64,000 nt of DNA, taken from NCBI GenBank assembly GCA_020061465.1, contig JAGUYG010000040.1, positions 1 to 64,000 on the forward strand. The letters run 5' to 3'. Positions 10,791 through 63,365 of this stretch are shown one piece after another. Each line of letters opens with the position of its first letter. The stretch's first letter is position 1. The DNA is from Ignavibacteriales bacterium. Its GTDB lineage: Bacteria; Bacteroidota; Ignavibacteria; Ignavibacteriales; Ignavibacteriaceae. The notes under the pieces were generated by a model, which was given only the letters and a program-made list of their open reading frames with translations, did no database searches and was not told where the DNA came from. The translations under genes were made by a program, and so were the position numbers.

Positions 10791-12032
10791 ATGTCTTATG
10801 TTAAAAATATTTTTTTGCGGGTGCTTATTCTTTTCACTGCAGCACTTTTTAATACTTGCAATATTAATCTGGTCTCGCCTTCCGAAGAAAATGAAAATAC
10901 AGGGATGCCTGCAAGAAACGCTTCGGTTATAATAAAAACCTCTCCTGATAAAGCATCAATTTTTATTTTTGATCGAAACACAGGTAAACTTACTCCCGAT
11001 AGTTTAACCAGCTTATACGAAGGTTCATATAATATCACTATCAAAAGATTAGGCTATTTAGATACAACTTTTACTTTTGCAATTTATTCGGATATGAAAT
11101 TCGCCTATGATATTATCCTAACTGAAGATCCAATAAAATGGAAGATATTTAATACATATAATTCCGACTTACCCGATAATTGGATTTGGGATATTCATAT
11201 TGATGAAACAAACCTAACTTGGATTGGGACTTTTGCCGGCGGTTTAGTAAAAACGGATTTGTCAAACTGGACGGTTTATAACTATTCTAACTCCGGTCTG
11301 CCGGATAATAAAGTGTATTCAATAGTCTCGGATTTGAATAATGAAAAATGGATTGGTACTGCATTTGGAGTAACTAACTTTAACGGACAAAACTGGGTAA
11401 CTTATAATTCAACCAATAATCCTGTTTTTTATTATAACTTTTTTATTGCCGTTGCTGCAGAGGGATTTGTTATTTGGGCAGCTAATGACAAAGGCGGGTT
11501 ATTTAAGTTCGAAAAAAATAAGTGGACAAAATATGATCCGACTAACTCAGGTATTCCCGATAATGTTATTTTTGCAGTTGCAATTGACGAGCATAAAAAT
11601 AAGTGGGTTGGAACATATCGAGGAGGTTTGGCGAAGTTTGACGGAAATACATGGTTAGTTTACAATAAAAATAATTCCGGGCTGTCTTCTAATCACATTA
11701 TTTCTGTACTTCCGGATAGGCAAGGCAATATTTGGGTCGGAACCATAGATGGTCTAACAAAATTTAACGGAAAGGAATGGGAAATTTTTCAAATCGGCAA
11801 TTCACCGCTTCGTTCGAACTGGATTGAATCATTAGCTGAAGATAATTACGGAAATATTTGGATTGGCACATGGGGCGGAGGATTGTATAAGTATTCAAAC
11901 GGTGCATTCGAAATCTTTAGTAGTGATAATTCACCGCTGCCTGATAATTATATAACTGCAGTAGCAGTTGACCGATTAGGAAACAAATGGATTGGAACAG
12001 TAAGCGGCGGGCTGGTGATATATACAGAGTAA
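10791..12032 (+). CDS. Two-component-regulator-type propeller protein with PEGA-like domain
   Basis: The 413-residue protein has an N-terminal hydrophobic export signal ending in a cysteine (LFNTC, a poor lipobox, so possibly a lipoprotein). A PEGA-like beta domain follows (about residues 40-112). The rest is about seven repeats of the Reg_prop type, each with a W-(I/V)-G-T core such as KWIGT, TWIGT or NIWVGT. In other Bacteroidota such propellers form the sensor part of hybrid two-component systems; here no kinase part is present. It probably sits in the periplasm or on the cell surface. The ligand is unknown. It follows pdxJ by 9 bp. Confidence 0.75.
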   Translation: MSYVKNIFLRVLILFTAALFNTCNINLVSPSEENENTGMPARNASVIIKTSPDKASIFIFDRNTGKLTPDSLTSLYEGSYNITIKRLGYLDTTFTFAIYSDMKFAYDIILTEDPIKWKIFNTYNSDLPDNWIWDIHIDETNLTWIGTFAGGLVKTDLSNWTVYNYSNSGLPDNKVYSIVSDLNNEKWIGTAFGVTNFNGQNWVTYNSTNNPVFYYNFFIAVAAEGFVIWAANDKGGLFKFEKNKWTKYDPTNSGIPDNVIFAVAIDEHKNKWVGTYRGGLAKFDGNTWLVYNKNNSGLSSNHIISVLPDRQGNIWVGTIDGLTKFNGKEWEIFQIGNSPLRSNWIESLAEDNYGNIWIGTWGGGLYKYSNGAFEIFSSDNSPLPDNYITAVAVDRLGNKWIGTVSGGLVIYTE

Positions 12033-13568: not shown

Positions 13569-14684
13569 ATGTTAATTGGGGTACCTAAAGAAATAAAAAC
13601 CAACGAAAACAGAGTTGCTCTGCTACCCGTAGGCGCACAAACTCTAATTCAAAACGGACATAAAGTTGTTGTTGAAATGAAAGCAGGAGCAGGCAGTGGT
13701 TTTACCGATGAAGACTATAAAGCAGTCGGTGCCGAAATTGCATCCACAGCAGCCGAAATTTTTGCTGCCGCAGACATGATAATGAAAGTAAAAGAACCTA
13801 TTAATAATGAATATACGATGATCAGAGAAGGGCAGATCGTGTTTACTTATTTTCACTTTGCCGCAAGCAGAGAATTAACAGAAGCTATGATGAAAAATAA
13901 ATGTGTAGGCATAGCGTATGAAACTGTACAGAAAGCCGACCGCTCACTGCCTTTATTAATTCCGATGAGCGAGGTAGCCGGAAGAATGGCTCCTCAGGAA
14001 GGTGCTAAATATCTTGAAAGAGTAATGGGCGGAAGAGGTATTCTTCTTGGCGGCGTACCAGGTACCGGTCCTGCGGAAGTTTTGGTTCTCGGCGGAGGAG
14101 TAGTCGGGACAAATGCCGCTAAAATTGCAGCAGGCTTTGGGGCACGGGTAACAATATTCGATAATAATTTGTATAGATTAAGATATCTCGATGATGTAAT
14201 GCCGAAAAACGTTACTACAATGATGTCAAATGAGTACTACATTAGAGCGGCATTACCTAAAGCCGATCTTGTTATCGGTGCCGTGCTTATTCCCGGTGCA
14301 AAGGCTCCTAAGCTTATAACGAGAGAAATGCTTGGCTTGATGAAAGAAGCTTCGGTTGTTGTTGACGTATCGGTCGATCAAGGCGGCTGCATCGAAACAT
14401 GCAAACCCACTACCCATGAAAATCCTACTTATGTGGTGGACGGCGTGCTGCATTATTGCGTTGCTAATATGCCGGGAGCTGTTCCGCATACTTCAACATT
14501 AGCACTTACAAATGCTACTTTACCTTATGCCGTTGAAATAGCAAATAAAGGATATGTAGATGCTATTCGAACAAATGAAGAAATTAAGTGGGGGCTAAAT
14601 TGCATCGACGGAAAAATTACATACAAGGGTGTTGCCGAAGCTTTTGATTTTGAGTATCATCCTGTCGATTCAATAATTAATTAA
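13569..14684 (+). CDS. ald: Alanine dehydrogenase
   Basis: The 371-residue enzyme catalyses NAD-dependent reversible deamination of L-alanine to pyruvate and ammonia. The N-terminus MLIGVPKEIK, the catalytic lysine in MKVKEP (about residue 75) and histidine in YFHFA (about residue 96), and the nucleotide-binding VLGGGVVGTNA near residue 173 are all conserved. The length is standard. It is downstream of the M16 protease with a 24-bp gap and is followed by a strong terminator. Confidence 0.97.
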   Translation: MLIGVPKEIKTNENRVALLPVGAQTLIQNGHKVVVEMKAGAGSGFTDEDYKAVGAEIASTAAEIFAAADMIMKVKEPINNEYTMIREGQIVFTYFHFAASRELTEAMMKNKCVGIAYETVQKADRSLPLLIPMSEVAGRMAPQEGAKYLERVMGGRGILLGGVPGTGPAEVLVLGGGVVGTNAAKIAAGFGARVTIFDNNLYRLRYLDDVMPKNVTTMMSNEYYIRAALPKADLVIGAVLIPGAKAPKLITREMLGLMKEASVVVDVSVDQGGCIETCKPTTHENPTYVVDGVLHYCVANMPGAVPHTSTLALTNATLPYAVEIANKGYVDAIRTNEEIKWGLNCIDGKITYKGVAEAFDFEYHPVDSIIN

Positions 14685-14693
14685 ATTTATCTA

Positions 14694-14724
14694 AAAGAGG
14701 ATTTGTAAACGGCAAATCCTCTTT
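14694..14724 (+). terminator. Rho-independent terminator of ald
   Basis: A perfect 12-bp stem (AAAGAGGATTTG and its complement CAAATCCTCTTT) with a 7-base loop is followed by a T-rich stretch. It lies 9 bp after the ald stop codon. Confidence 0.9.
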
Positions 14725-14779
14725 CATTTTTCTAACAGGCTTATATATTTTAGTAAAGCAATTACCATAAGGAAACTAA

Positions 14780-36831: not shown

Positions 36832-37125
36832 TCAAATAAAAGGGAATATACTTTTAGGTTTCCCTTCAACATCTTTTACTAAGAATAAATGATCTGCCGG
36901 TTTACCACAGGTGCCTATGTTATGTATCAAGCTGCGTAAATCTTCTGTTTGGTTTTCTTCACAAAAAAATTCAAACTTTGATATTTGCGAATTGGGTCTG
37001 AAATATTCAGTTACCATTATTTCTTGTATTCCTTCTTTATATAATTCTTCTACAAGCCAATGTATGCGGATTGTATTGACGTAAGCTGTAATTTTTTTAG
37101 GTTTATTCTTTTCTTGATTGTTCAT
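36832..37125 (-). CDS. Divergent PII-like small protein
   Basis: I chose the ATG at 37125 (MNNQEKNK) because it has GAAAGG upstream; a longer frame begins at 37173. The protein of about 97 residues has the PII/CutA-like pattern: an N-terminal strand KKITAYVNTI, an amphipathic helix, a strand with EIMVTEYF, and then FEFFCEENQTEDLRSLIHNIG. It lacks the PII T-loop and nucleotide loop motifs. It overlaps the end of the YHS gene by 23 bp. I read it as a degenerate PII relative in a metal operon; the binding partner is unknown. Confidence 0.6.
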   Translation of the reverse strand: MNNQEKNKPKKITAYVNTIRIHWLVEELYKEGIQEIMVTEYFRPNSQISKFEFFCEENQTEDLRSLIHNIGTCGKPADHLFLVKDVEGKPKSIFPFI

Positions 37126-37324
37126 TTTTGTAATCCTTTCCATAATTTGCGCTAAAATATTTTTCCGGATCATTGTTAAATTCTTGTTTACAAGATTGTG
37201 CGCAAAAGTAAAATATCTTCCCTTTGTAGAAATCTACATCCGCTGCGTACTCAGGTTCTATTCGCATACCACAAACCGGATCACGAACAAGGAAGTCTTC
37301 ATTATTTCTTTTATTAATCAGCAT
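37103..37324 (-). CDS. YHS-domain protein (copy 1)
   Basis: The 73-residue protein has a YHS domain with VRDPVCGMRI near residue 14 and FYFCAQSCKQEF near residue 38. This is the cysteine pattern of metal-binding YHS/TRASH domains seen in copper ATPases and metal sensors. Its start overlaps the stop of the ABC ATPase gene by 7 bp (ATGCTGA), so translation is coupled. It may carry copper or another soft metal in the cytoplasm. Similar domains occur at 44330-46168 and 59625-59810. Confidence 0.85.
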   Translation of the reverse strand: MLINKRNNEDFLVRDPVCGMRIEPEYAADVDFYKGKIFYFCAQSCKQEFNNDPEKYFSANYGKDYKNEQSRKE

Positions 37325-37986
37325 ATTAATTTGCCATCAGATAATTGAATGTTTCTAGTTGAATATTTTTTAAATACCGGATTATGAGTTACCATAATTA
37401 CAGTCTTACCGGTTTGATTTAATTCCAATAAAATATTCATAATATCTTCGCTGGTTTTGCTGTCAAGATTTCCGGTTGGCTCATCTGCTAGAAGTATCAT
37501 CGGATCATTAATAAGTGCTCGGGCAATAGCAACCCTTTGCTGCTCACCGCCGCTTAATTCATTTATCAGTCTTTTACCTTTACTTTCAAGATGAACTTTA
37601 TTTAAAATTGATGAGGCAAGTTCAGCTTGCAGTTTTTTTGAATGACTGTTCGTTGCCAAAGGAAGCTGAACATTTTCAATTACTGTCAAATATGGTATCA
37701 GCTGAAATGATTGAAATACAAAACCTATATACTCTCTCCTGAAATCGGCAAGACGGTTTGCAGAGAGATTGTAAATATCTATCTCATCAATAATAACTTT
37801 ATCTTTAGTAGGTTTATTTAAGCCACCAAGCATTGTTAACAATGTACTTTTGCCAGAACCGGATTCACCCATTAAAGAAATAAATTCACCTTGTTCTATT
37901 TCCAAAGAAATATTGTTTACAGCTATAACTTTTTCGTTACCGCTTTTATATTCTTTTGCTAGATTGTCTATCTGTATTAAGCTCAT
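37318..37986 (-). CDS. LolD/MacB-type ABC ATPase
   Basis: The 222-residue ATPase shows Walker A GESGSGKST near residue 38, signature LSGGEQQRVAIARAL near residue 141, Walker B ILLADEPTGNLD and switch MVTHNP. The subfamily is the one paired with FtsX-like permeases. The permease gene is just upstream on the same strand. The neighbouring DUF2318 gene makes it resemble the ABC part of the P19/FTR1-type iron (or copper) uptake modules of Campylobacter and relatives. That link is inference. Confidence 0.9.
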   Translation of the reverse strand: MSLIQIDNLAKEYKSGNEKVIAVNNISLEIEQGEFISLMGESGSGKSTLLTMLGGLNKPTKDKVIIDEIDIYNLSANRLADFRREYIGFVFQSFQLIPYLTVIENVQLPLATNSHSKKLQAELASSILNKVHLESKGKRLINELSGGEQQRVAIARALINDPMILLADEPTGNLDSKTSEDIMNILLELNQTGKTVIMVTHNPVFKKYSTRNIQLSDGKLIC

Positions 37987-41797: not shown

Positions 41798-42199
41798 TTA
41801 TTCCTTTACCTTGAAGTTGTGTTTAAGAAGGTTTTCTTTTGCTTTTTCAAGACTCACTTCTTTAAGCTTCATTCCACAGAGTGGGCATTCACCCGGTACA
41901 TCCGATATAACATTCCAGTCCATCTGATCCTGATAGACTTTACCATCTTTGTTTTTATCAATTGCGGTGAGATCAATTTCACCTTCTCTTACCCAAGATT
42001 CTTCATTAGTTTTAGTCGAATCCATCAGCATATTTTTATGATCTTTCATATCCATATGCTTGTGAGGAGCACCTTTCATTTCCATTTTATGTTTATGATT
42101 TGAATGAGCCTTTGAAGAGTCTTCCTGTGCAAAAGAAATGGCCACACTGAATGTAAATACGAACAGAATAAGTGTTAGGATTTTTGTTTTGTAGTTCAT
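41798..42199 (-). CDS. Exported heavy-metal-binding-domain protein, copy A
   Basis: I place the start at 42199 (MNYKTK), with AAAGGAGAT upstream. The protein of about 133 residues has a signal sequence (LTLILFVFTFSVAISFA) and a His/Met-rich stretch (HSNHKHKMEMKGAPHKHMDM). It ends with a heavy-metal-binding domain whose core is GECPLCGMKLKEV near residue 107. The C-terminal 50 residues are nearly identical to those of the partial gene at 63601-64000. A periplasmic copper/silver buffer or chaperone is likely. Confidence 0.8.
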   Translation of the reverse strand: MNYKTKILTLILFVFTFSVAISFAQEDSSKAHSNHKHKMEMKGAPHKHMDMKDHKNMLMDSTKTNEESWVREGEIDLTAIDKNKDGKVYQDQMDWNVISDVPGECPLCGMKLKEVSLEKAKENLLKHNFKVKE

Positions 42200-42237
42200 C
42201 TTATATCTCCTTTTAATTAATTGTTTATTGATTAAAA

Positions 42238-42669
42238 TCATTTTACTTTCCCGGCAGATTTTTCTTTCTTAATTACATTTCCGGTTAAAGTAAGATTAAT
42301 TGTGGGATTCTTAGGGTCATTTGTATCAACGGTGATAAGCCTATTTTGCTTGCCTGTTTTTCCTTTAGAATCAAACGTAACTTTTAAATTTGTCGATTCA
42401 CCCGGCTTTAATTCATTCTTTTCGGGCATTACTGCCGTACATCCGCAAGATGCGCTTACTTTGGTTATCTTAAGTGTGTCGCTGCCTTCATTTGCAATTA
42501 CAAAATATGTTGTTACGACCGAGTCCTGAATAATATCTCCAAAGTCGTAAGCCATCGGTAGAATTACAACTTTAGGTTCATTTTCGAATTGTGCTAAAGC
42601 AAAGCCTATAAACACAAAAAAGAACAGTACAGTCCATCTGCTGCAGCAGATTGATTTATTAAGTTTCAT
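42238..42669 (-). CDS. Exported DUF1573 protein
   Basis: The 143-residue protein has a signal sequence ending AQFEN and a DUF1573 (Ig-like) domain with DFGDIIQDSVVTTYF, SASCGCTAVMPEKNELKPGES and GNVIKK. The SCGCT cysteine pair is the hallmark of the family, which is widespread in Bacteroidota and has no firm function. Its stop overlaps the beginning of the next gene region. It stands in the first transcriptional unit behind the sigma-54-type promoter at 43.5 kb. Confidence 0.85.
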   Translation of the reverse strand: MKLNKSICCSRWTVLFFFVFIGFALAQFENEPKVVILPMAYDFGDIIQDSVVTTYFVIANEGSDTLKITKVSASCGCTAVMPEKNELKPGESTNLKVTFDSKGKTGKQNRLITVDTNDPKNPTINLTLTGNVIKKEKSAGKVK

Positions 42670-42725: not shown

Positions 42726-43064
42726 TCAAAGTGCTTCCGCACCTCGTTGTTTTCTTCTAATGCTTACAGCTTCGGATATATCCGAGACAAAAATCTTTCC
42801 GTCACCTTTTCTGCCGGTATGGGCTTTATCCAGGATTATATTTACAAATTTTTCAAGCTCATCATCCGTGCAAACAAGTTCTATCTTTACGCTGCTGCAA
42901 TATTTTTCACAATATTCTATAGACAATCTTGAATGTTCAGGATCTGCCCAGCCACCGAGTGTTGATACGTCTATAACAGTCATCCCTTTTATACCATTCT
43001 GTTCCAGGGCGGATATAACCCTATCAGTCATATCGGGTCTTATGTATGCCTTTATTTCTTTCAT
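42726..43064 (-). CDS. PII-type signalling protein, copy A (PII-NG-like)
   Basis: The 112-residue protein has the PII fold: MKEIKAYIRPDMTDRVISAL, KIELVCTDDELEKFV and the B-loop TGRKGDGKIFV near residue 88, with a C-loop RRKQRG near residue 105. The T-loop is not canonical: the uridylylated Tyr51 context is replaced by GGWADPEHSRLSIEYCEKYC. This matches the PII group encoded beside heavy-metal RND pumps (PII-NG). The twin gene at 59853-60191 indeed follows a CusA gene. Nucleotide-dependent control of the pump is suspected for the group. Confidence 0.85.
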   Translation of the reverse strand: MKEIKAYIRPDMTDRVISALEQNGIKGMTVIDVSTLGGWADPEHSRLSIEYCEKYCSSVKIELVCTDDELEKFVNIILDKAHTGRKGDGKIFVSDISEAVSIRRKQRGAEAL

Positions 43065-43179: not shown

Positions 43180-43476
43180 TTACTTCTCCTTCTTATTCAA
43201 TTTTTCCTCGTACAACTTTGGATTTTTTAGAAATGCATTATCGCAGCCGGGGCAGCAAAATCCTATTATTTTATTTCCAAATATCAGATAAGGAATTTTG
43301 TGGTCAATTTTCTTCCCCTCAATCGGGCAGACTTCATTAATTGGCGTTAAAGGATTCCTTTCCTTCATATTCACTTCAACAATTTTTTCATTATTTAAAA
43401 ACATTGGTTCGTTTTGAGGAAGGCTTGTTCCCGCTATTATTAAGTTTATTGCTGCAGCCAAAAAAATCTTTTTCAT
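43180..43476 (-). CDS. Exported YHS-like metal-binding protein
   Basis: I chose MKKIFLAAAIN at 43476 as the start because AAGGAT lies just upstream; an upstream ATG at 43491 lacks a ribosome site. The product of about 98 residues has a signal sequence, then NEVCPIEGKKIDHKIPYLIFG and GFCCPGCDNAFLKNP. It is a YHS/TRASH-like domain with cysteines spaced as C-x33-CC-x2-C. It is the first gene after the sigma-54-type promoter at 43529-43544, which is about 55 bp upstream. Confidence 0.75.
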   Translation of the reverse strand: MKKIFLAAAINLIIAGTSLPQNEPMFLNNEKIVEVNMKERNPLTPINEVCPIEGKKIDHKIPYLIFGNKIIGFCCPGCDNAFLKNPKLYEEKLNKKEK

Positions 43477-43528
43477 TTCATCCTTATTCATTTAGAGTAA
43501 TTAATTTTAAAAACTCGATTATATTAAT

Positions 43529-44329: not shown

Positions 44330-46168
44330 TTAATCATAAGCGTTTAAAACATACTGTAGAGCCATACGATGAGTATTAAAAAAAGAAGCATTGATAGCAA
44401 TTGCATGACGCATTATATTGATCCAATACTCCCTGCCAACATAAAAAGTAGGAATTATTGCAAATTCTAATTTATCATATAAGGAACTTGCATCTTGCTG
44501 GTCGTTGCTTTCCATATTCTGAGGAGTACCGATAGACCATCCTGTAATGTCCTCAATGCATCCTTCAATCCACCAACCATCTAAAATACTTAAGGAAGGA
44601 ACACCATTATGTGCCGCTTTCATACCTGATGTACCGGATGCTTCCTGTGGTTTGCGTGGCGTATTAAGCCATAAATCAACACCGGAAACTAATAGTTTAG
44701 CTAGCTCCTTGTCGTAATTTTCAAGGTAAACAACTTTTATTTTGTTTTCCAACCATTTCGATGCGGCAATTATTTTCTTTATAAGGTCTTTGCCCATCCC
44801 ATCCTGTGGATGAGCTTTACCTGAAAAGATAAATTGAATTTTGCCTGCATCATTAGCGATTTTTATCAGCCTGTCAATATCAGAAAAAATCAAATCAGCC
44901 CTCTTATAAGAGGCAGCTCTTCTTGCAAATCCTATTGTGAGGGTTTTATAATCCATTTCTTTGCCAGTTTTTTCATTAACATAATCAATAAGTTTATTCT
45001 TCGCTTCTTGGTGAGCCTTCCATATATTATCACCCGGAATGCTCAAGGCATAACGCAGGCTAAAGGAATCGTTCTTCCAATCGGGAATATATTTATCATA
45101 GAGCTTTTTAAAACTTTCGCAAACCCACGTGGAAGAATGTACACCATTGGTAATAGATTCTATTGAGTATTCGGGGAACATCGAGCGAGATACTTCGCCA
45201 TGCTTTTTTGCAACACCATTTATGTATTTACTCAGATTTAAGGCTAGAAAAGTCATATTCAGTTGTTCTTCACCACCGAGCATCTTTAGAACATCCAGGG
45301 GCAAAAATCTCCTTAATGCATTGTTCACTAAATCGTAAGGGAACTGATCGTGCCCCGCTGGTACGGGAGTATGAGTAGTAAATACGCAAAGCTCTCTCAC
45401 TGCTTCAAAATTCAATTCCGCTTCTTTATTGTTTTTCATCTCCTTTAATAATTCGAGAGTTAAAAAAGCAGCATGCCCTTCATTCATATGATATTTTTTT
45501 ATTCCTGTATATCCTAGACTTTGAAGCATACGCACGCCACCAATACCCAAGACAATCTCTTGCAGCAATCTATACCATTGATTCCCGCCATAAAGGAAAT
45601 CATTAAGCCCCCTATCATATTCACTGTTTTCTTCTAAGTCGGTATCTAAAAAAATTATAGGTATAGAATAACTGCTTATGCCTAAAACATTATATTGCCA
45701 GGCGCCAATAAATATATCTCTGTTTTCTACTTTGATGCCCACTTTATTAGGTAAGGGTTTTAAAAAATCCTCGCGGTTCCATTGGACAGGCAATTCCTGC
45801 TGGTTTCCTTGTGCATCTAATTTTTGGTTAAAATAACCTTTCTCATATAAAAGTGTAACTGCTACCAGAGGTACTTTTAAGTCTGCACAGGATTTTATAA
45901 AGTCACCGGCTAAAATGCCCAGTCCGCCGCTATAGGTTGGGATAGAAGAATCAATTCCAATTTCCATAGAAAAATAGGCAATCTTTCTTTCCTTTATTTC
46001 CTCAGATTCATACGACCTATGTCTGTGCTTCAAATATTTATCTGGAGAATTCTTAAATTCATTTTTACATAAATTTGAGCAGAAATAAAATATCTTTCCC
46101 TTGAATTCATATTTAAATTCTTCTTTTGCAATCATTCCGCAAACGGGGTCTCTATCCATTTTAATCAT
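44330..46168 (-). CDS. YHS domain fused to alpha-glucan phosphorylase
   Basis: The 612-residue protein has two parts. Residues 1-50 form a complete YHS domain, RDPVCGMIAKEEF with FYFCSNLCKNEF, like the metal-binding proteins around it. Residues 60-612 are a glycogen/alpha-glucan phosphorylase (GT35, short TIGR02094 class): YFSMEIGIDSSIPTYSGGLG near residue 64 and the PLP-lysine region SGTSGMKAAHNGVPSL near residue 510. I have not seen YHS fused to a phosphorylase described. The start at 46168 follows AAAGGCT closely. The gene ends the unit of the third sigma-54 promoter. Confidence 0.9.
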   Translation of the reverse strand: MIKMDRDPVCGMIAKEEFKYEFKGKIFYFCSNLCKNEFKNSPDKYLKHRHRSYESEEIKERKIAYFSMEIGIDSSIPTYSGGLGILAGDFIKSCADLKVPLVAVTLLYEKGYFNQKLDAQGNQQELPVQWNREDFLKPLPNKVGIKVENRDIFIGAWQYNVLGISSYSIPIIFLDTDLEENSEYDRGLNDFLYGGNQWYRLLQEIVLGIGGVRMLQSLGYTGIKKYHMNEGHAAFLTLELLKEMKNNKEAELNFEAVRELCVFTTHTPVPAGHDQFPYDLVNNALRRFLPLDVLKMLGGEEQLNMTFLALNLSKYINGVAKKHGEVSRSMFPEYSIESITNGVHSSTWVCESFKKLYDKYIPDWKNDSFSLRYALSIPGDNIWKAHQEAKNKLIDYVNEKTGKEMDYKTLTIGFARRAASYKRADLIFSDIDRLIKIANDAGKIQFIFSGKAHPQDGMGKDLIKKIIAASKWLENKIKVVYLENYDKELAKLLVSGVDLWLNTPRKPQEASGTSGMKAAHNGVPSLSILDGWWIEGCIEDITGWSIGTPQNMESNDQQDASSLYDKLEFAIIPTFYVGREYWINIMRHAIAINASFFNTHRMALQYVLNAYD

Positions 46169-46220: not shown

Positions 46221-48419
46221 TCATATTTTTAAGTTTATACCAATAACTGGAATTAATGGGAACACGGTCATCTGCCTCTTTGATGTATAGTCAAGATTAT
46301 AAATCCAATGAACTACATTATTGTTATTTAATACATTCAAAATTTCAATATAAAGTTCCAGTGGAAGATAGTTTAAATAGAACAATCTTGTTAAGCGGAC
46401 ATCAAGTCTGCTGTAAGAAGGATAACGCGCCGAATTTTGGCTGCCAAGTAAAGGGAAGAATTTCTCTGCACCTTTATCAAAATAACTGCCTAAAACCGGT
46501 ATGTAAGGTGTCCCAGTGCCAAATCTGTATTTTGCTCCTACCGACCAGACATCTGAAAATTTATAATTAAACACTGCACTTATAAGGTGAGTTCTATCAA
46601 AACTGAATAATTCTTCGCTGCGGATTAAACCTTCTTTTCTTTTAGCAATAGAGTAAGAATATGATATCCACCCTCCAATGTTTTCATTCGGTTTTATCTG
46701 CAAATAAATTTCCGCACCTCTTGCATAACCGAATCCTTCACTTGATAAATTTTGAGTTTCATTATCATAAGAGCCTAAATCATAAAAATTTTTTTTGTAC
46801 AATTCAAGATTTACAATCAGTTCATCTGATAACTGGTGCTTTATACCAAAACCAATACTTTCAGCTTTTTTGAAGTCAAGCGAAGGATTAGCAGCTGATT
46901 CATAAGCTAACGGTGACTGATAATACCAACCATAGTTAAAAGAAAGGCTCATATGTTCGTTCCAGTCGTAAGCGAAATTGAATCTTGGGGACAAAACGCC
47001 TTTCTTAATTTTATCAAGATAGTCGAACCGAAGCCCTGCGTTAAATGAAAGCTGATCTGTAAGTTTAACTTTGTCTTCACCATAAACAGAATAAAGAACA
47101 TCTTTCCCTGAAGATTTAATTTGATAATCTTCAAGTGTGTAAAAATTTATCTCGCCAGGAAGTCTTACAGAAGCTTTATCATCTTTAACTATTAACCATC
47201 CGCCTATATGTATTTCGTGGCTATTAAATAGGAAAGACAAATCATTCTTCAATCCATATTCTTTAATATTATAATTTTCAAAAGAGTTCAAGGGATAAGT
47301 AGATTCTTTATCTGCTCTTGAATAATATATATTTAGCTCATTTACAGAATTGTCGGATAAAATAAGATTTAAACTTGTGCCAAAGGATTGATTGTATCCA
47401 TCTGAATTCATTGCTCCGCTAAAATGGTCATAGTTAAAAACTCCATAAAGATTTTCAAAAGAATTGAGCCCGGTTATAGTCAATTTCCCAAGGTTCGAAA
47501 GATTGAAATCAAGCTTTCCGTAGAAATCATAGAAGTAGGGAACAGCGGCTGATTCACCTTTTAAATCGGGTAATAAATTATATACTACATCAAAGTAACT
47601 TCTTCTTGCAGAAATAAATCCAGATCCGTTCAAACCATTTAATGGAAATTCTATTATCCCATTTAAATCTGTTAAGCTTAGATTAACTTCTCCGTTAAAC
47701 TGATTTACACTTGCAGTTTTATTATTAATTGCTAAAACCGAAGATAATCTATCTCCGTATCTTGCCGGAAATCCTCCGGCATAAAATTTAACATCTTCAA
47801 CGAGGCGAGAATTAAAAATGCTGAATAAACCTCCGCCCATAAACTCAAAGTGATAAGGATTTGCAATAGTTGCACCATCAAAAAGGATTAGATTTTCAGA
47901 AGCGTTTCCACCGCGCACATAAAGTTTGGAGTCATCACTTCCACTTGAAACCCCGGGAAGTGTTTGCAATGTCCAGAATATATCTTGGGCAGAACCGGGA
48001 GAATGCTTAATCATATTCCGGTTTAACTTAGCTGTCAAGCCGGTTGCATCATATTTTTCTGGTTTGGGTGTTATAACAACGGATTGAAGGTATATAACTT
48101 TTTCAGTTAATGATGTGTCAATTGAGATTACTTTATTTACCCTTGCATTTAAGTTCTCTATAATCAATTCTTCATACCCAATCATTGATATGCGAAGACT
48201 ATAAATACCTTCCGGAATTTTAATTGAAAAATTTCCTTTTAAATCAGTGGCAGCACCATAGCTTGTATTTATGACCAAAATATTTACTCCAGCAAGTGGT
48301 TGGTTATTAGTATAATCTTTTACAGTGCCCCTGATGATTGCTTTATCGAACTGGTTTTGAGCAAGAACAAAATTTCCAACAAAAAAAAAGAAAATTATTT
48401 TTAACATAATCTGTTTCAT
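46221..48419 (-). CDS. TonB-dependent outer-membrane receptor
   Basis: I place the start at the ATG 48419, with AAGGA upstream. The 732-residue protein has a signal sequence (LKIIFFFFVGNFVLAQ), a CarboxypepD_reg-like domain (residues 27-110), a plug with SPGSAQDIFWTLQTLPGVS near residue 138, and a beta-barrel that ends in a typical strand (IPVIGINLKI). Context suggests import of a metal complex (copper or iron). No specific ligand residues are visible. Confidence 0.9.
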   Translation of the reverse strand: MKQIMLKIIFFFFVGNFVLAQNQFDKAIIRGTVKDYTNNQPLAGVNILVINTSYGAATDLKGNFSIKIPEGIYSLRISMIGYEELIIENLNARVNKVISIDTSLTEKVIYLQSVVITPKPEKYDATGLTAKLNRNMIKHSPGSAQDIFWTLQTLPGVSSGSDDSKLYVRGGNASENLILFDGATIANPYHFEFMGGGLFSIFNSRLVEDVKFYAGGFPARYGDRLSSVLAINNKTASVNQFNGEVNLSLTDLNGIIEFPLNGLNGSGFISARRSYFDVVYNLLPDLKGESAAVPYFYDFYGKLDFNLSNLGKLTITGLNSFENLYGVFNYDHFSGAMNSDGYNQSFGTSLNLILSDNSVNELNIYYSRADKESTYPLNSFENYNIKEYGLKNDLSFLFNSHEIHIGGWLIVKDDKASVRLPGEINFYTLEDYQIKSSGKDVLYSVYGEDKVKLTDQLSFNAGLRFDYLDKIKKGVLSPRFNFAYDWNEHMSLSFNYGWYYQSPLAYESAANPSLDFKKAESIGFGIKHQLSDELIVNLELYKKNFYDLGSYDNETQNLSSEGFGYARGAEIYLQIKPNENIGGWISYSYSIAKRKEGLIRSEELFSFDRTHLISAVFNYKFSDVWSVGAKYRFGTGTPYIPVLGSYFDKGAEKFFPLLGSQNSARYPSYSRLDVRLTRLFYLNYLPLELYIEILNVLNNNNVVHWIYNLDYTSKRQMTVFPLIPVIGINLKI

Positions 48420-48496
48420 CTTCAATCCTTGCTCATTTAATCTTCACTTGCCTTTGTAATCTATTTTTTGTTTTGAAGATGTCCTTAATTTCTATT

Positions 48497-48621: not shown

Positions 48622-49116
48622 TTAAAATGAATTAAGCGGGATGCTCAATGAAAACATCGCTGTGTTAGTCGACGCATCGTAGCGCAACGAAATATTCTGA
48701 TTGTATCGTTCAGCCGAATACCCCGCATCAAATGCGCTAATGATCTTTACTACTATGTATCCCACCAGCAAATAATAAAACTGGATCCGTTCTGCTGTAG
48801 TCCATGAAGGGCGGTAATCTGAGCCATAATAATTTGAATAATTATGCATTCCCCATGACCAGCTATTGCGTCCGAGCAAAACGGCTGCCGGTACAAAAAG
48901 GATAAGTTCTGCAGTTGTGTAGATAATTCCACGTTCCCAATTGCCAATATAAAAATTTCCTAAATCAACAGGCAGCGGTTGAATCGAAAGCAGCGCAGCA
49001 GTTGTAGGGTCTTTTCTATTAGCATTGTCAACTCTACCTCTGCCGTGATGTTGAGCGAACCCATTGCTTGATGCTAGAACAATCAATAGCACTACAAAAA
49101 AAACAATTCGTTTCAT
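48622..49116 (-). CDS. Small exported membrane protein, copy B
   Basis: The 164-residue paralogue of the protein at 39288-39773. It shares the signal sequence, the His-rich start (HHGRGR), the core LLSIQPLPVDLGNFYIGNWERGIIYT near residue 44, and the end of FDAGYSAERYNQNISLRYD. Having two copies in the two transcriptional units supports module duplication. The family is unrecognised beyond a DUF5683-like core. The ribosome site is GAGGTTACA. Confidence 0.7.
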   Translation of the reverse strand: MKRIVFFVVLLIVLASSNGFAQHHGRGRVDNANRKDPTTAALLSIQPLPVDLGNFYIGNWERGIIYTTAELILFVPAAVLLGRNSWSWGMHNYSNYYGSDYRPSWTTAERIQFYYLLVGYIVVKIISAFDAGYSAERYNQNISLRYDASTNTAMFSLSIPLNSF

Positions 49117-51557: not shown

Positions 51558-53690
51558 TTATTTCAAGAGGACTATTTTCTTTGTCTCTCTGAATGCTTGT
51601 TTTCCATCACCAGCAGTTGCTTCCATGGAATAGAAGTAAACACCTGAGGCAATACTTCTTCCAATGGAGTTAGTGTCGAAAGTTATTTCATAATTCCCAG
51701 TTTGTTTAACTTCATTTATCAATTCAGCAACAATTTGTCCATTACTATCATAAACTATAATTCTAACTTTATTTTCGTAAGGTATTGAATATTTAATTGT
51801 CGTTGAAGGGTTAAACGGATTGGGATAATTCTGTAAAAGGACATAATTCTTTGGAAGAGTTCCTGATTCTTCATCTGCGGAACTTACTCCTTTAACCGCC
51901 TGAATAGACTTAACCAGTACATCAATTATGAACATTGCGTTGTGCATTCCTTCGCTTCCATCATTATTAACCAATTGGTAGTTCCAGTATGCTTTTTTAA
52001 TGGTTAGGTCATTTAGATCACGTATTAATTCCCAGGAGATAGAATCTATTCCAACTGGAGGCAAGACAATTCTTAAATTTCTTTCAAGCCCTTCTATTTC
52101 TTCAGGAATGCTGCCTTTTGTTCCGTTATTATCGTAATCTTCTGTAGCAATAAAATCATCCCAACTGGTTATACTTCCATGACAGTTAGCACAAGCTGTG
52201 GTATGATAATAATTATTTTCCTCGTTGTGCAGTATCCACGTATGATCACCGACATTGTCACGGTTAACATTCCCTGTATCCGGCGTTGCTACCATATGGC
52301 AATCAACGCACGCATTGGTTACTGCGAATTTATGTGGACCCGACAAAAAAGGTGAATCAAATTCTGCCGCATTTTGTCCTAAGAAAACATCTGTCTGAGG
52401 TGATTCGTGAGGTCCCCAAAATGCAGAAGTAACATTTGTCTGAACATAACTTACATTATCTCTTCTGGACTTATGGCAATTCATACATAATTGCCCTTTG
52501 CCTCCCTCAGTATAGCGATAACCATTTCCCAATGTATCAGACCCAACAGGAGTAAATCTTAAAGAATATTCGTTTGTGTTGCCATGAGGATCATGGCAAA
52601 CTGCACAGGAGATCATCTTCCGATTTGCTTGTATCATCCCAGTCGTATTTGTAGTCTGCCCTTTGGTAAAATTAACAAAGCCTTGTCCGTCATGACATCT
52701 GATACAATTATTCAAGTTATTTGTTTGAGATTCGGAACCTTGTGCAAATGAATTTGACCAAACAAGATTTGAGTGCAGTGAATTCTCCCACTGAGCAACT
52801 TTGTTTTGCCTCGAGGGATTGTCATGACATTGAGCACAATTCCCTGCGTCAATGGAAATTTGAATCATCTCAGTATTTCCACCATTAAATGCATGCTCAC
52901 TTCCAGGTCCATGGCAGCTTTCGCACCCAATGGTTGCAAGATTAACTAAGGCGGGATAATCTGCTTTGAGCGAATCCCATTTACCCGGACTCGGTGGTCC
53001 CTGCCATGCCCAACCCAACGATTTAGCCATATCATCAAAACCGCCGTTGCTCGCTACAATGTACTTATCAGTTCCGATAGTGTGGCAGTTAAAACATGAA
53101 GTTCCGTAATAAGAGGGACCTTGGGTAATCATTGTCTTAAACATCTGAGCATGACCGGAAACCTGCCAGCGATCAAATATTTCAGAAAATTCCGGGGATG
53201 ACTGATGACAAGTCATACATTTCGGGAACTGACCTGATATACCCTCGAAATTTCCAACACCTATAAAATCCGCAGCGTAAATTGTCTTAGTTGTGTCGTC
53301 CGTACCGCTTGATGTTGTAATTGTTAGCTTGATTATATATGAACCTTTTACCTCGGGTCTGAATTGCACCCATGTTGGATTAATAATTTCGAGAGTAATA
53401 TTTGAACCAGTCGGTTGGGATAACAATTCGTATACGGTTGAATTTATTGGTTCACTATTGCCAATATTTCTCGCAGATAAATAAACATAAGTTTCATTAG
53501 GAACAGTATTCAATCCGGTAGAAACCGAATTAGTATTTATTCCTAATGTTTGAAGTTTGTAAGGAGAAATAGCTTCTGTAATTATATTTGCTTTTTGTGC
53601 GAATACAGAAATAATTCCGGCAATCAGAAAGATTATTATAACTAAGGAGCTTTTGTTGATTCCCCACATGGAAAAAGCAATTTTATTCAT
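51558..53690 (-). CDS. Secreted nine-haem cytochrome c with type IX sorting domain
   Basis: The 710-residue protein has a signal sequence and nine CxxCH haem motifs: CMTCH, CFNCH, CESCH, CAQCH, CIRCH, CAVCH, CMNCH, CVDCH and CANCH, between about residues 155 and 510. Spacing and context resemble cytochrome c554/NrfA-like scaffolds. It ends in a C-terminal sorting domain starting NYPNPFNPS and ending KKIVLLK. It is therefore expected at the cell surface and could transfer electrons outside the cell. Flanking hairpin repeats suggest it is a movable cassette. Confidence 0.93.
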   Translation of the reverse strand: MNKIAFSMWGINKSSLVIIIFLIAGIISVFAQKANIITEAISPYKLQTLGINTNSVSTGLNTVPNETYVYLSARNIGNSEPINSTVYELLSQPTGSNITLEIINPTWVQFRPEVKGSYIIKLTITTSSGTDDTTKTIYAADFIGVGNFEGISGQFPKCMTCHQSSPEFSEIFDRWQVSGHAQMFKTMITQGPSYYGTSCFNCHTIGTDKYIVASNGGFDDMAKSLGWAWQGPPSPGKWDSLKADYPALVNLATIGCESCHGPGSEHAFNGGNTEMIQISIDAGNCAQCHDNPSRQNKVAQWENSLHSNLVWSNSFAQGSESQTNNLNNCIRCHDGQGFVNFTKGQTTNTTGMIQANRKMISCAVCHDPHGNTNEYSLRFTPVGSDTLGNGYRYTEGGKGQLCMNCHKSRRDNVSYVQTNVTSAFWGPHESPQTDVFLGQNAAEFDSPFLSGPHKFAVTNACVDCHMVATPDTGNVNRDNVGDHTWILHNEENNYYHTTACANCHGSITSWDDFIATEDYDNNGTKGSIPEEIEGLERNLRIVLPPVGIDSISWELIRDLNDLTIKKAYWNYQLVNNDGSEGMHNAMFIIDVLVKSIQAVKGVSSADEESGTLPKNYVLLQNYPNPFNPSTTIKYSIPYENKVRIIVYDSNGQIVAELINEVKQTGNYEITFDTNSIGRSIASGVYFYSMEATAGDGKQAFRETKKIVLLK

Positions 53691-59624: not shown

Positions 59625-59810
59625 TTAAGATTTTGCACCGTTTTGGTGACCGTTAATAAATTTTCTAGGGTCTTTCTCAAATTCCGCCTGGCAAATAGGA
59701 CAGCATAGGTAGTAAGTTTCCTTACCATATTTTACTTTTGCATAAGCTTTGTTAGGATTAATCTTTTTCCCGCAAACCGGGTCTCGAAGAATATGAGTGT
59801 TGAATTTCAG
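59625..59810 (-). CDS. YHS-domain protein (copy 3) with a non-standard start
   Basis: The frame gives a complete YHS domain, RDPVCGKKINPNKAYAKV with YLCCPICQAEFEKDP. In this frame there is no ATG, GTG or TTG after the preceding stop (the PII stop). AAAGGAG precedes a CTG at 59808-59810 at nine bases, so CTG is the likely initiation codon and the product has 61 residues. The gene lies between the PII gene and the DUF5676-like gene, and the context is that of other PII/YHS/CusA clusters. Confidence 0.75.
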   Translation of the reverse strand: MKFNTHILRDPVCGKKINPNKAYAKVKYGKETYYLCCPICQAEFEKDPRKFINGHQNGAKS

Positions 59811-59852
59811 TTTATTTTTCTCCTTTCCATAGTGCTGATCATTTAATTTTGA

Positions 59853-60191
59853 TTAAAGTGCTTCCGTTCCGCGTTGTTTTCTTCTGATGCTAACTGCTTC
59901 AGATATATCCGAAACAAATATTTTACCGTCGCCTTTGCTTCCGGTATGAGAATTATCAAGAATTACACTTACAAATTTTTCAAGATCATCATCCGAACAA
60001 ACAAGCTCGATCTTTATGCTGCTGCTGTATCTTTCGCAATATTTAATTGACAGCTTTGAATTTTCCGGATCAGCCCAGCCGCCAATAGTAGATACATCTA
60101 TTACCGTCATTCCTTTTGATCCGGCTCTTTCCAATGCTGAAATAACTCTATCGGCTACTGATGGTCTTATATATGCTTTTATTTCTTTCAT
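59853..60191 (-). CDS. PII-type signalling protein, copy B (PII-NG-like)
   Basis: The 112-residue twin of the protein at 42726-43064; most residues are identical. It has the B-loop TGSKGDGKIFV near residue 88, the C-loop RRKQRG and a T-loop GGWADPENSKLSIKYCERY without the usual tyrosine site. It begins 21 bp after the cusA stop, the arrangement known for PII proteins beside heavy-metal RND pumps. Sensing of ATP/ADP state to control the pump is a proposed but unproven role. Confidence 0.88.
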   Translation of the reverse strand: MKEIKAYIRPSVADRVISALERAGSKGMTVIDVSTIGGWADPENSKLSIKYCERYSSSIKIELVCSDDDLEKFVSVILDNSHTGSKGDGKIFVSDISEAVSIRRKQRGTEAL

Positions 60192-60212: not shown

Positions 60213-63200
60213 TTAATTTTCTAACAATCTTCCTTCTAACTTTGCCTGCTTTTTCATTTGCCAGGAACGCCATAGATAATAGATAACCGGGTAGACGGCT
60301 AATTCCATCAAGACCGACGTGACAACACCTCCAATCATAGGTGCAGCAATACGTTTCATAACATCTGCCCCGGTTCCGTGGCTCCACATGATAGGAGCTA
60401 AACCGGCAAGAATAACTGCAGCAGTCATAATTTTCGGTCGTACTCGTTTTACAGCACCATGATGGATAGCATCTTTCAGTCCTTTTAGTCCGGTTAACAG
60501 CTCTTTTTCTTTCCATTCTTTTAGCGCTACATCAAGATAGAGCAACATAACTACGCCTGTTTCCGCATCTAAGCCGGCAAGGGCAATTATTCCTACCCAG
60601 ACAGCAATACTTATATTGTAACCGAGCAGATAGAGCAGCCAAAAGGCACCGACGAGAGAGAAGGGAACGGCAAGAAATACGATTGCAACTTTTACCAAAG
60701 ATTTAGTATTCAGATAAATGATTACGAAGATGATAAATAACGTCATTGGAATTACATACAGCATTCTTTCTTGTGAGCGAAGCATATATTCATATTCGCC
60801 GCTCCAAGAAATATTATAACCTGCGGGCAGTTTAATTTTTTCTGCTACAATTTTTTGTGCGTTTTTAACATAAGTACCAACGTCAATATTTTTTATATCA
60901 ACATAGACCCAAGCGTTGGGACGTGTGTCTTCACTTCTTATAACCATTGGACCTTTACGCGGTGTAATAGTTGCAATCTGACCGATAGGAACTTGCTCAC
61001 CGATGGGCGTTGGTACCAGCACTTTCTTCATTGATTCGATATTATCTCTAAGTTCCCGGCTGTAACGAAGATTAACAGTGTATCTTTCCAATCCTTCAAC
61101 TGTATTTGTAACAGACATGCCACCCATTGCAGTTTGAATAACCATTTGAACATCTTCAATTGTTAATCCGTAGCGGGCTGCTTCTTTTCTATTGATTTCT
61201 ATATCGAGATAATTTCCTCCGACAGCTCTTTCAGCAAAGGCGCTTAAAGTTCCCGGTACAGTTCGCATAACTGATTCAACTTCTTTTCCAATATCCTGCA
61301 ATATTGATAGATCTGGCCCTGAAATTTTTATTCCTACCGGAGTTTTGATTCCCGTACTAAGCATATCAGTTCTTGTTTTGATTGGCATCGTCCACGCATT
61401 TGTAACACCGGGGAATTGAATCGCTCTGTCCATTTCATCAATAAGTTTTTGAACAGTCATTCCGGGTCGCCATTCATCCTCGGGTTTTAGCATTATCGTA
61501 GTTTCAACCATATCAAGCCCGGCAGGATCAGTAGCTGTTTCTGCGCGTCCAATTTTTCCGAATACGTGATGTACTTCGGGAAATGTCTTAATGATCTTAT
61601 CGGTCTGCTGAAGTATTTCTTTCGCTTTAGTAATTGACATACCGGGCATTGTTGTTGGCATGTAAAGTAAATCGCCTTCATAAAGTGGCGGCATAAATTC
61701 AGAGCCAATTTTATTGTAAGGAATTATTGTCAACCCAAGTATAATCAGCACCGTAACAAGAACAGCTTTGTTGTGCTTGATTACAAAATCAACAACAGGG
61801 TGATAAATTTTAATTAGGAATCTGTTTATAGGATTTTTTTCTTCTGGTAAAATCCTGCCTTTAATCCAGTATCCCATCAAAATAGGAACGAGTGTAACAG
61901 AAAGAATAGCGGCTGCTGCCATCGAATATGTTTTTGTAAATGCCAGCGGTCTAAATAATCTTCCTTCCTGTGCTTCAAGTGTAAATACAGGAATGAACGA
62001 GACGGTTATAACTAAAAGGGAATAGAATAGCGAAGGTCCAACTTCTTTTGAGGCATCCAGAATAAGCTGCCATCTTTCTCTTCTTTGCTCTTGCGGTTTA
62101 AGCATATCGTGTTCGATATGCTTATGTGCGTTTTCAATCATAATTATTGCTGCATCCACCATTGCACCTATTGCAATTGCAATACCGCTCAAAGACATTA
62201 TGTTGGCATTAATTCCCTGCCAGCGCATAACGATAAATGCCATTAGTATCGCAGTTGGCAGAGTGATAATAGCTACAAAAGCGCTTCGGGCATGAAGTAA
62301 AAACAAAATACAAATTAACGCTACAAATAAAATTTCTTCTAAAAGTTTTTCTTTTAGGGTGTCAATTGCTCGTTCAATTAAACCGGCGCGGTCATAAACA
62401 GATTCAATTTTTACATCGGAGGGGATTCCGGCTTTTAACTCTTCTATTTTTTGTTTTACATTTTCAATAACTTTAAGTGCGTTCTGTCCATAACGCATAA
62501 CTATAATTCCACCGACAACTTCACCTTCACCATTTGATTCAGCCAATCCTCTTCTCATCAAAGGACCAAGCGTAACATCGCCAACATCCTTCAAATAAAC
62601 GGGAGTGTTCGTCATTTTATTTACCATTAAAGGAATGTTCTGGATATCTTCAACAGATTTGATGTATCCGAGTCCACGCACCATAAATTCCATTTCGCCC
62701 ATTTCAATTACTTCGCCGCCAACATCGTTGTTCGATTTCTTAATTGCCATATCAACCATAGAAAGCGGAATATTATATGCGAGTAATTTTGCAGGATCAA
62801 CCGTAACCTGATATTGCTTTACGTAACCGCCGATGCTTGCAACTTCCGCTACTCCCTCTACAGCCGATAAAGCATATTTTAAATACCAATCCTGGATAGA
62901 TCGAAGTTCTTGGAGTGATCTTTTATCTGAGGTAAGTTGATACTGATAAACCCAGCCGACACCCGTGGCATCTGGACCAAGTGTAGGAATAATATTCTGC
63001 GGCAGCCGCTGCTGTGCATAGTTCAAATACTCAAGTACTCTGCTTCTTGCCCAATAAATATCAGTTCCGTCTTCAAAAATTACATAGACAAGTGAATAGC
63101 CGAAGAAGGAATATCCGCGCACTACTTTAGAACCCGGCACTGAAACCATCGCTGTTGTTAATGGGTAAGTAACCTGATCTTCAACTGTCTGTGGTGATTG

Positions 63201-63365
63201 TCCCGGATATTGAGTATAAATAATAACCTGAACATCGCTTAAATCCGGTATCGCATCTACCGGTGTGCTTAGCATTGAGTAGATTCCTACTCCGATTAAA
63301 AATAAAGTCGTAAGGATAACCATGAATTTATTTCTAATGGAAAACTCTATAATTTTTTCTAACAT
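60213..63365 (-). CDS. cusA: CusA-type copper/silver RND efflux pump
   Basis: The 1050-residue inner-membrane pump of the heavy-metal RND family has twelve helices and two large periplasmic domains. The three methionines that bind copper/silver in E. coli CusA are conserved: YMPTT near residue 568, LDMVETT near 618 and TDMLSTG near 666. The proton-relay aspartate in GAMVDAAIIMIENAH is near residue 401. The length is typical. It needs CusB-like and CusC-like partners, which are not in the window. It is followed by PII, YHS and DUF5676-like genes. Confidence 0.97.
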   Translation of the reverse strand: MLEKIIEFSIRNKFMVILTTLFLIGVGIYSMLSTPVDAIPDLSDVQVIIYTQYPGQSPQTVEDQVTYPLTTAMVSVPGSKVVRGYSFFGYSLVYVIFEDGTDIYWARSRVLEYLNYAQQRLPQNIIPTLGPDATGVGWVYQYQLTSDKRSLQELRSIQDWYLKYALSAVEGVAEVASIGGYVKQYQVTVDPAKLLAYNIPLSMVDMAIKKSNNDVGGEVIEMGEMEFMVRGLGYIKSVEDIQNIPLMVNKMTNTPVYLKDVGDVTLGPLMRRGLAESNGEGEVVGGIIVMRYGQNALKVIENVKQKIEELKAGIPSDVKIESVYDRAGLIERAIDTLKEKLLEEILFVALICILFLLHARSAFVAIITLPTAILMAFIVMRWQGINANIMSLSGIAIAIGAMVDAAIIMIENAHKHIEHDMLKPQEQRRERWQLILDASKEVGPSLFYSLLVITVSFIPVFTLEAQEGRLFRPLAFTKTYSMAAAAILSVTLVPILMGYWIKGRILPEEKNPINRFLIKIYHPVVDFVIKHNKAVLVTVLIILGLTIIPYNKIGSEFMPPLYEGDLLYMPTTMPGMSITKAKEILQQTDKIIKTFPEVHHVFGKIGRAETATDPAGLDMVETTIMLKPEDEWRPGMTVQKLIDEMDRAIQFPGVTNAWTMPIKTRTDMLSTGIKTPVGIKISGPDLSILQDIGKEVESVMRTVPGTLSAFAERAVGGNYLDIEINRKEAARYGLTIEDVQMVIQTAMGGMSVTNTVEGLERYTVNLRYSRELRDNIESMKKVLVPTPIGEQVPIGQIATITPRKGPMVIRSEDTRPNAWVYVDIKNIDVGTYVKNAQKIVAEKIKLPAGYNISWSGEYEYMLRSQERMLYVIPMTLFIIFVIIYLNTKSLVKVAIVFLAVPFSLVGAFWLLYLLGYNISIAVWVGIIALAGLDAETGVVMLLYLDVALKEWKEKELLTGLKGLKDAIHHGAVKRVRPKIMTAAVILAGLAPIMWSHGTGADVMKRIAAPMIGGVVTSVLMELAVYPVIYYLWRSWQMKKQAKLEGRLLEN

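Follow-up and report, generated by a model that had tools for sequence, protein, structure and literature searches.

We describe a protein from an Ignavibacteriales bacterium which joins an N-terminal YHS domain to an alpha-glucan phosphorylase; by its sequence matches it is a short-form member of TIGR02094/GT35, predicted to carry out phosphorolysis. We propose that it is a metal-controlled glycogen phosphorylase, which would be switched on by cytosolic copper or silver (or mercury) to feed efflux and metal reduction. We give this reading a probability of about one half. The gene lies in a stretch of 64,000 nucleotides, which will be called the window. Its parts are the following:

44330..46168 (-): YHS-alpha-glucan phosphorylase fusion, 612 aa, an open reading frame with matches to PF04945, PF00343 and TIGR02094
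46025..46159 (-): YHS domain, residues 4-48 (PF04945)
45989..46024 (-): linker, residues 49-60, with low pLDDT, high dN/dS and variable length
44333..45988 (-): short GT35 phosphorylase catalytic domain, residues 61-612 (TIGR02094; AlphaFold2 model)
46148-46150 (-): candidate metal ligand D7, invariant in the fusions
46139-46141 (-): candidate metal ligand C10, invariant in the fusions
46079-46081 (-): candidate metal ligand C30, invariant in the fusions
46067-46069 (-): candidate metal ligand C34, invariant in the fusions

The reading frame has an ATG start and is free of internal stops. Pfam finds YHS at residues 7-48 (E 1.9e-12, 47.4 bits, gathering cut-off 30.3) and the NCBIfam alpha-glucan family phosphorylase model TIGR02094 covers residues 63-611 (E 1.3e-175, 585.6 bits, cut-off 191.7); the linker between the two has 12 residues. 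The initial annotation had described a YHS domain ahead of a complete short-type phosphorylase with its PLP lysine motif, and this is borne out: both models score above their curated cut-offs, and the motif is EASGTSGMK with K517 (codon at 44618-44620). In an alignment of 59 plain and fused relatives E509, T513, K517, R417, K422 and H266 are invariant or nearly so, R417 and K422 being part of the RRxxxYK motif. We take K517, R417, K422 and H266 to be equivalent to K680, R569, K574 and H377 of muscle phosphorylase. Foldseek searches with the AlphaFold2 model gave glycogen phosphorylases as the best matches. The catalytic domain is 53-70 % identical to plain short TIGR02094 members, with which it shares the whole catalytic domain, the PLP lysine and the phosphate-site residues; it differs from most of them by the N-terminal YHS domain and by its location in a metal-resistance island. 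The source genome has a glycogen synthase gene and two other phosphorylases, one of the long TIGR02094 type and one of the classical type, so that the fused enzyme is an additional copy.

The fusion is not restricted to this genome. We have found 21 distinct YHS-phosphorylase fusions in Ignavibacteria, Deltaproteobacteria-type MAGs (L041, L060, L069, L070, L122, L123), Planctomycetota (L065, L157-L160, L162) and plasmids of cyanobacteria; L103 likewise carries the fusion. Independent assemblies contain it in a single frame, with identities of 87 % (L009/L038), 84 % (L010/L039), 81 % (L011/L040) and 69 % (L041). Four cyanobacteria, Chroococcidiopsis, Aulosira, Leptolyngbya and Stanieria, also have it on complete plasmids (55-58 % identity), where it is annotated merely as an alpha-glucan phosphorylase. 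The initial annotation named a frameshift or an assembly error at residues 50 to 60 as an outcome that would overturn its proposal. These assemblies and the four complete plasmids rule out both: the relatives are fused in one open frame. A TAG codon stands in frame near the start of the phosphorylase part of a Deltaproteobacteria sequence (L060/L169), which may be a broken gene or a case of recoding; this sequence was counted as fused in the tree and neighbourhood tests only. Of 80 genomes from the family to which the window belongs, 4 contain the fusion, and among 296 genomes spread over the phylum it is confined to members of this family. Such a patchy distribution is what one expects for transferred islands.

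A tree of 135 phosphorylase domains, calculated with the YHS columns left out, requires six changes of the fused state, and well supported branches demand at least three of them. A constraint that gathers the 21 fused rows in a single clade fails the AU test (p 3.4e-6), and with it falls a single ancient fusion followed by vertical inheritance; a single gain would require ten losses. The fusion has therefore arisen more than once, or else has been lost very frequently. A tree of the YHS domain itself gives a hint of two groups, with 45 columns which are too few for counting origins. In L039, L040 and L172 free YHS genes are immediately beside the fusion, which offers an easy route to fusing. 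The same three loci would also fit a neutral event, a read-through between a YHS gene and a phosphorylase gene next to it, in an island where both kinds abound. We consider this very improbable: the YHS part is under purifying selection, its ligands are invariant and there is more than one origin. The dN/dS values in particular are difficult to reconcile with it. Among the four closest relatives they are 0.04-0.21 for the YHS part (individual values are rough, with 45 codons only), 0.5-0.96 for the linker and 0.09-0.13 for the enzyme, to which the YHS values come close. As judged from these ratios, purifying selection is acting on the YHS part while the linker drifts. Since selection keeps its residues, as is apparent from both dN/dS and the invariant sites, the YHS part should be functional.

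The invariant positions are D7, C10, M12, F29, C30, C34, F38 and P42, found in 20 of the 20 aligned fusions; in the same alignment the length of the linker differs. D7, C10, C30 and C34 are the likely metal ligands of the domain, predicted by analogy: one Asp and three Cys have been proposed as YHS ligands in the adenylyl cyclase of M. phlei (PMC4626032). In the AlphaFold2 model (mean pLDDT 87) both domains have high confidence, about 87-93 in the YHS core, and linker residues 50-56 are loose (pLDDT < 50); the model contains no metal, and its pLDDT speaks for each domain and not for where YHS sits with respect to the active site. YHS-like domains can also serve as plain structural zinc sites, which counts against a metal switch, and some of the related FCS/TRASH domains are structural zinc fingers. 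The YHS part might thus be a treble-clef zinc domain that stabilizes the protein, helps it to form oligomers or binds glucan, and have no sensing role. The closest solved structures by sequence, TA0938 and phenol hydroxylase, point in this direction through weak matches. A purely structural domain leaves unexplained both the repeated origin of the fusion and its concentration in metal islands, when its plain relatives are mostly found elsewhere, and we find this explanation quite unlikely.

The island setting is clearly apparent in the window:

37106..37336 (-): free YHS protein, a stop-to-stop ORF (PF04945, E 1.5e-13)
41798..42241 (-): heavy-metal-binding-domain (HMBD) protein (PF19335, E 1.7e-8)
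43180..43491 (-): exported-looking 103-aa protein with a weak YHS-like motif (PF04945, E 0.004, below threshold; found with our own HMM)
46221..48425 (-): TonB-dependent receptor-like protein, directly upstream of the fusion on the same strand (PF00593, E 6.5e-19)
59628..59852 (-): free YHS protein (PF04945, E 1.8e-10)
60213..63365 (-): CusA/CzcA heavy-metal RND efflux pump (TIGR00914, 1200 bits, cut-off 701)

The free YHS proteins that had been noted near the fusion are thus present: those at 37106-37336 and 59628-59852 score above the Pfam threshold, and the YHS-like protein at 43180-43491 is a weak match below it. The metal cluster reported around the gene is equally real. Besides the CusA/CzcA pump, the window has more than one HMBD protein, and farther along the contig there are a CopA-type ATPase (YHS-HMA-HMA) and a mer set with MerR, MerT and HMA-MerA genes. 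The whole genome (4.2 Mb) has ten YHS matches; eight of them are on this contig, from 37 to 99 kb, a span of 62 kb. In L038 a MerR-MerT-MerA-like run directly follows the fusion, the families being called on the homologues in the genome of the window.

The same setting is found in the other fusions. Of the 21 fused loci 19 have, within 8 kb, a P1B heavy-metal ATPase, an RND pump or a further YHS gene, vs 7 of 74 loci with a plain short phosphorylase, where one plain locus was entered twice and RND pumps were recognized by BLAST to the CusA of the window. The Fisher test gives p 2.6e-12, uncorrected for kinship, related loci not being independent. Other neighbours belong to carbon metabolism: a phosphoketolase close to the fusion in L120, phosphofructokinase in L172 and L173, an AMPK-type glycogen-binding protein in L173, trehalose synthase in L178 and, in L039, PEP carboxykinase a few hundred bases downstream.

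Some P1B ATPases in these clusters have a YHS domain of their own. This is compatible with a docking or chaperone module, which would deliver metal or tether the enzyme to a YHS-bearing ATPase or other island proteins and provide ATP locally with catalysis unchanged; a disordered and drifting linker would also suit it. Only 5 of the 21 fused loci have such an ATPase at a distance of up to 8 kb, though the clusters reach further, and we hold a docking function to be unlikely. The fusion recurs in four phyla, its ligands are invariant, its YHS part is under purifying selection and metal genes are strongly enriched around it; all of this supports the architecture, the metal-resistance setting and a functional linkage of YHS and phosphorylase. 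A direct action of metal on the breakdown of glycogen, as put forward in the initial annotation, is the best explanation, and it has a biochemical precedent in the YHS-adenylyl cyclase.

In a metal-activated phosphorylase the YHS domain would bind a soft metal through D7, C10, C30 and C34; the likeliest candidates are Cu(I)/Cu(II) and Ag(I), and Hg(II) is another possibility. The gene content of the island could accommodate copper, silver or mercury. Binding would alter the conformation of YHS or its packing against the catalytic domain and turn phosphorolysis on; glucose-1-phosphate from glycogen would then support the production of ATP and NADPH. Meanwhile the metal would be exported by the P1B ATPase and the RND pump encoded nearby, and NADPH would be consumed by redox enzymes such as mercuric reductase. 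From the comparisons given here we infer that metal is bound, which metal it is, that it activates the enzyme and what purpose this serves in the cell. The activating direction is proposed because of the analogy with the M. phlei adenylyl cyclase, in which Cu2+ activates the full-length enzyme and not the catalytic domain alone (PMC4626032).

The sequence evidence is identical for a domain which works in the opposite direction: metal would inhibit phosphorolysis and thereby save glycogen, or activity would be confined to metal-free cells. In Synechocystis high copper represses the transcript of the ordinary glgP, together with glycolysis genes (PMC4182526), which agrees with inhibition and shows that copper does not generally increase the breakdown of glycogen. 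However, the sole YHS-enzyme fusion that we found with measured activity is activated by copper, and an enzyme silenced by metal would be of little use within a metal-resistance island. Inhibition appears to us distinctly improbable.

The M. phlei cyclase resembles the fusion in having an enzyme, a short linker and a YHS domain with Asp and three Cys. The enzyme is a different one, the linker has 8 residues instead of 12, YHS is C-terminal instead of N-terminal and the product is cAMP, whereas the fusion would give glucose-1-phosphate; the metal response of the latter is a proposal by analogy. CopA-type copper P1B ATPases have in common with the fusion an N-terminal YHS domain and their gene clusters, but they are transporters and not metabolic enzymes. 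The glycogen phosphorylase of E. coli is a bacterial enzyme under physiological control by HPr (PMC11046441; PDB 9s8k): its control comes from a separate phosphocarrier, while in the fusion it would come from a built-in YHS domain. If our reading is true, a single protein would couple metal stress to stored energy at the speed of metal binding. Glycogen phosphorylase would have a mode of control distinct from AMP, phosphorylation and HPr, and a function would be assigned to a group of proteins whose present annotation says no more than 'alpha-glucan family phosphorylase'. YHS together with a phosphorylase is unreported in the literature searched, which covers a minority of the subscription journals, and searches for a phosphorylase in copper islands gave nothing relevant there; domain databases may already contain the architecture as an automatic entry.

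Several other features of these islands deserve mention. A 164-aa protein outside all Pfam families (window 48622-49116) lies a little way upstream of the fusion in three Ignavibacteria loci, the window, L038 and L039, and is a candidate conserved partner. Two P-II-like proteins (window 42726-43064 and 59853-60191, one of which adjoins the CusA pump) score far below the nitrogen-regulator cut-offs and are thus likely metal-island relatives of P-II. The island also has a multihaem cytochrome-like protein with a Por secretion tail (window 51558-53690). In L171 a tandem double-YHS protein of 137 aa (14338-14751, +) is near a CopA-type ATPase. In three genomes from two phyla a plain short phosphorylase is 17-40 kb from the fused copy, within the same metal island: G078:C64 (L184), G835:C3 (L174-L176) and G773:C22 (L177-L178). 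These are perhaps pairs of a gated and an ungated enzyme.

In metal-resistance islands YHS may have been joined repeatedly to phosphorylase and to other enzymes of carbon and redox metabolism, PtsI-like and thioredoxin-reductase-like. We put forward such a class of metal-gated central-metabolism enzymes only tentatively; if it exists, cytosolic metal would redirect carbon and reducing power directly, without transcription. Two further candidates, L185 and L186, were rejected as fragments of YHS-HMA ATPases. A PtsI-like PEP-utilising enzyme in L041 (573-2459, -) has a divergent C-terminal YHS (E 4e-4, below the Pfam cut-off) and lies a short distance from the YHS-phosphorylase, on the opposite strand. 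In L070 a fusion of YHS with a thioredoxin-reductase-like flavoprotein (10888-11964, +) is found two genes downstream of the YHS-phosphorylase; it has homologues on plasmids, with the YHS part not fully covered among the matches listed.
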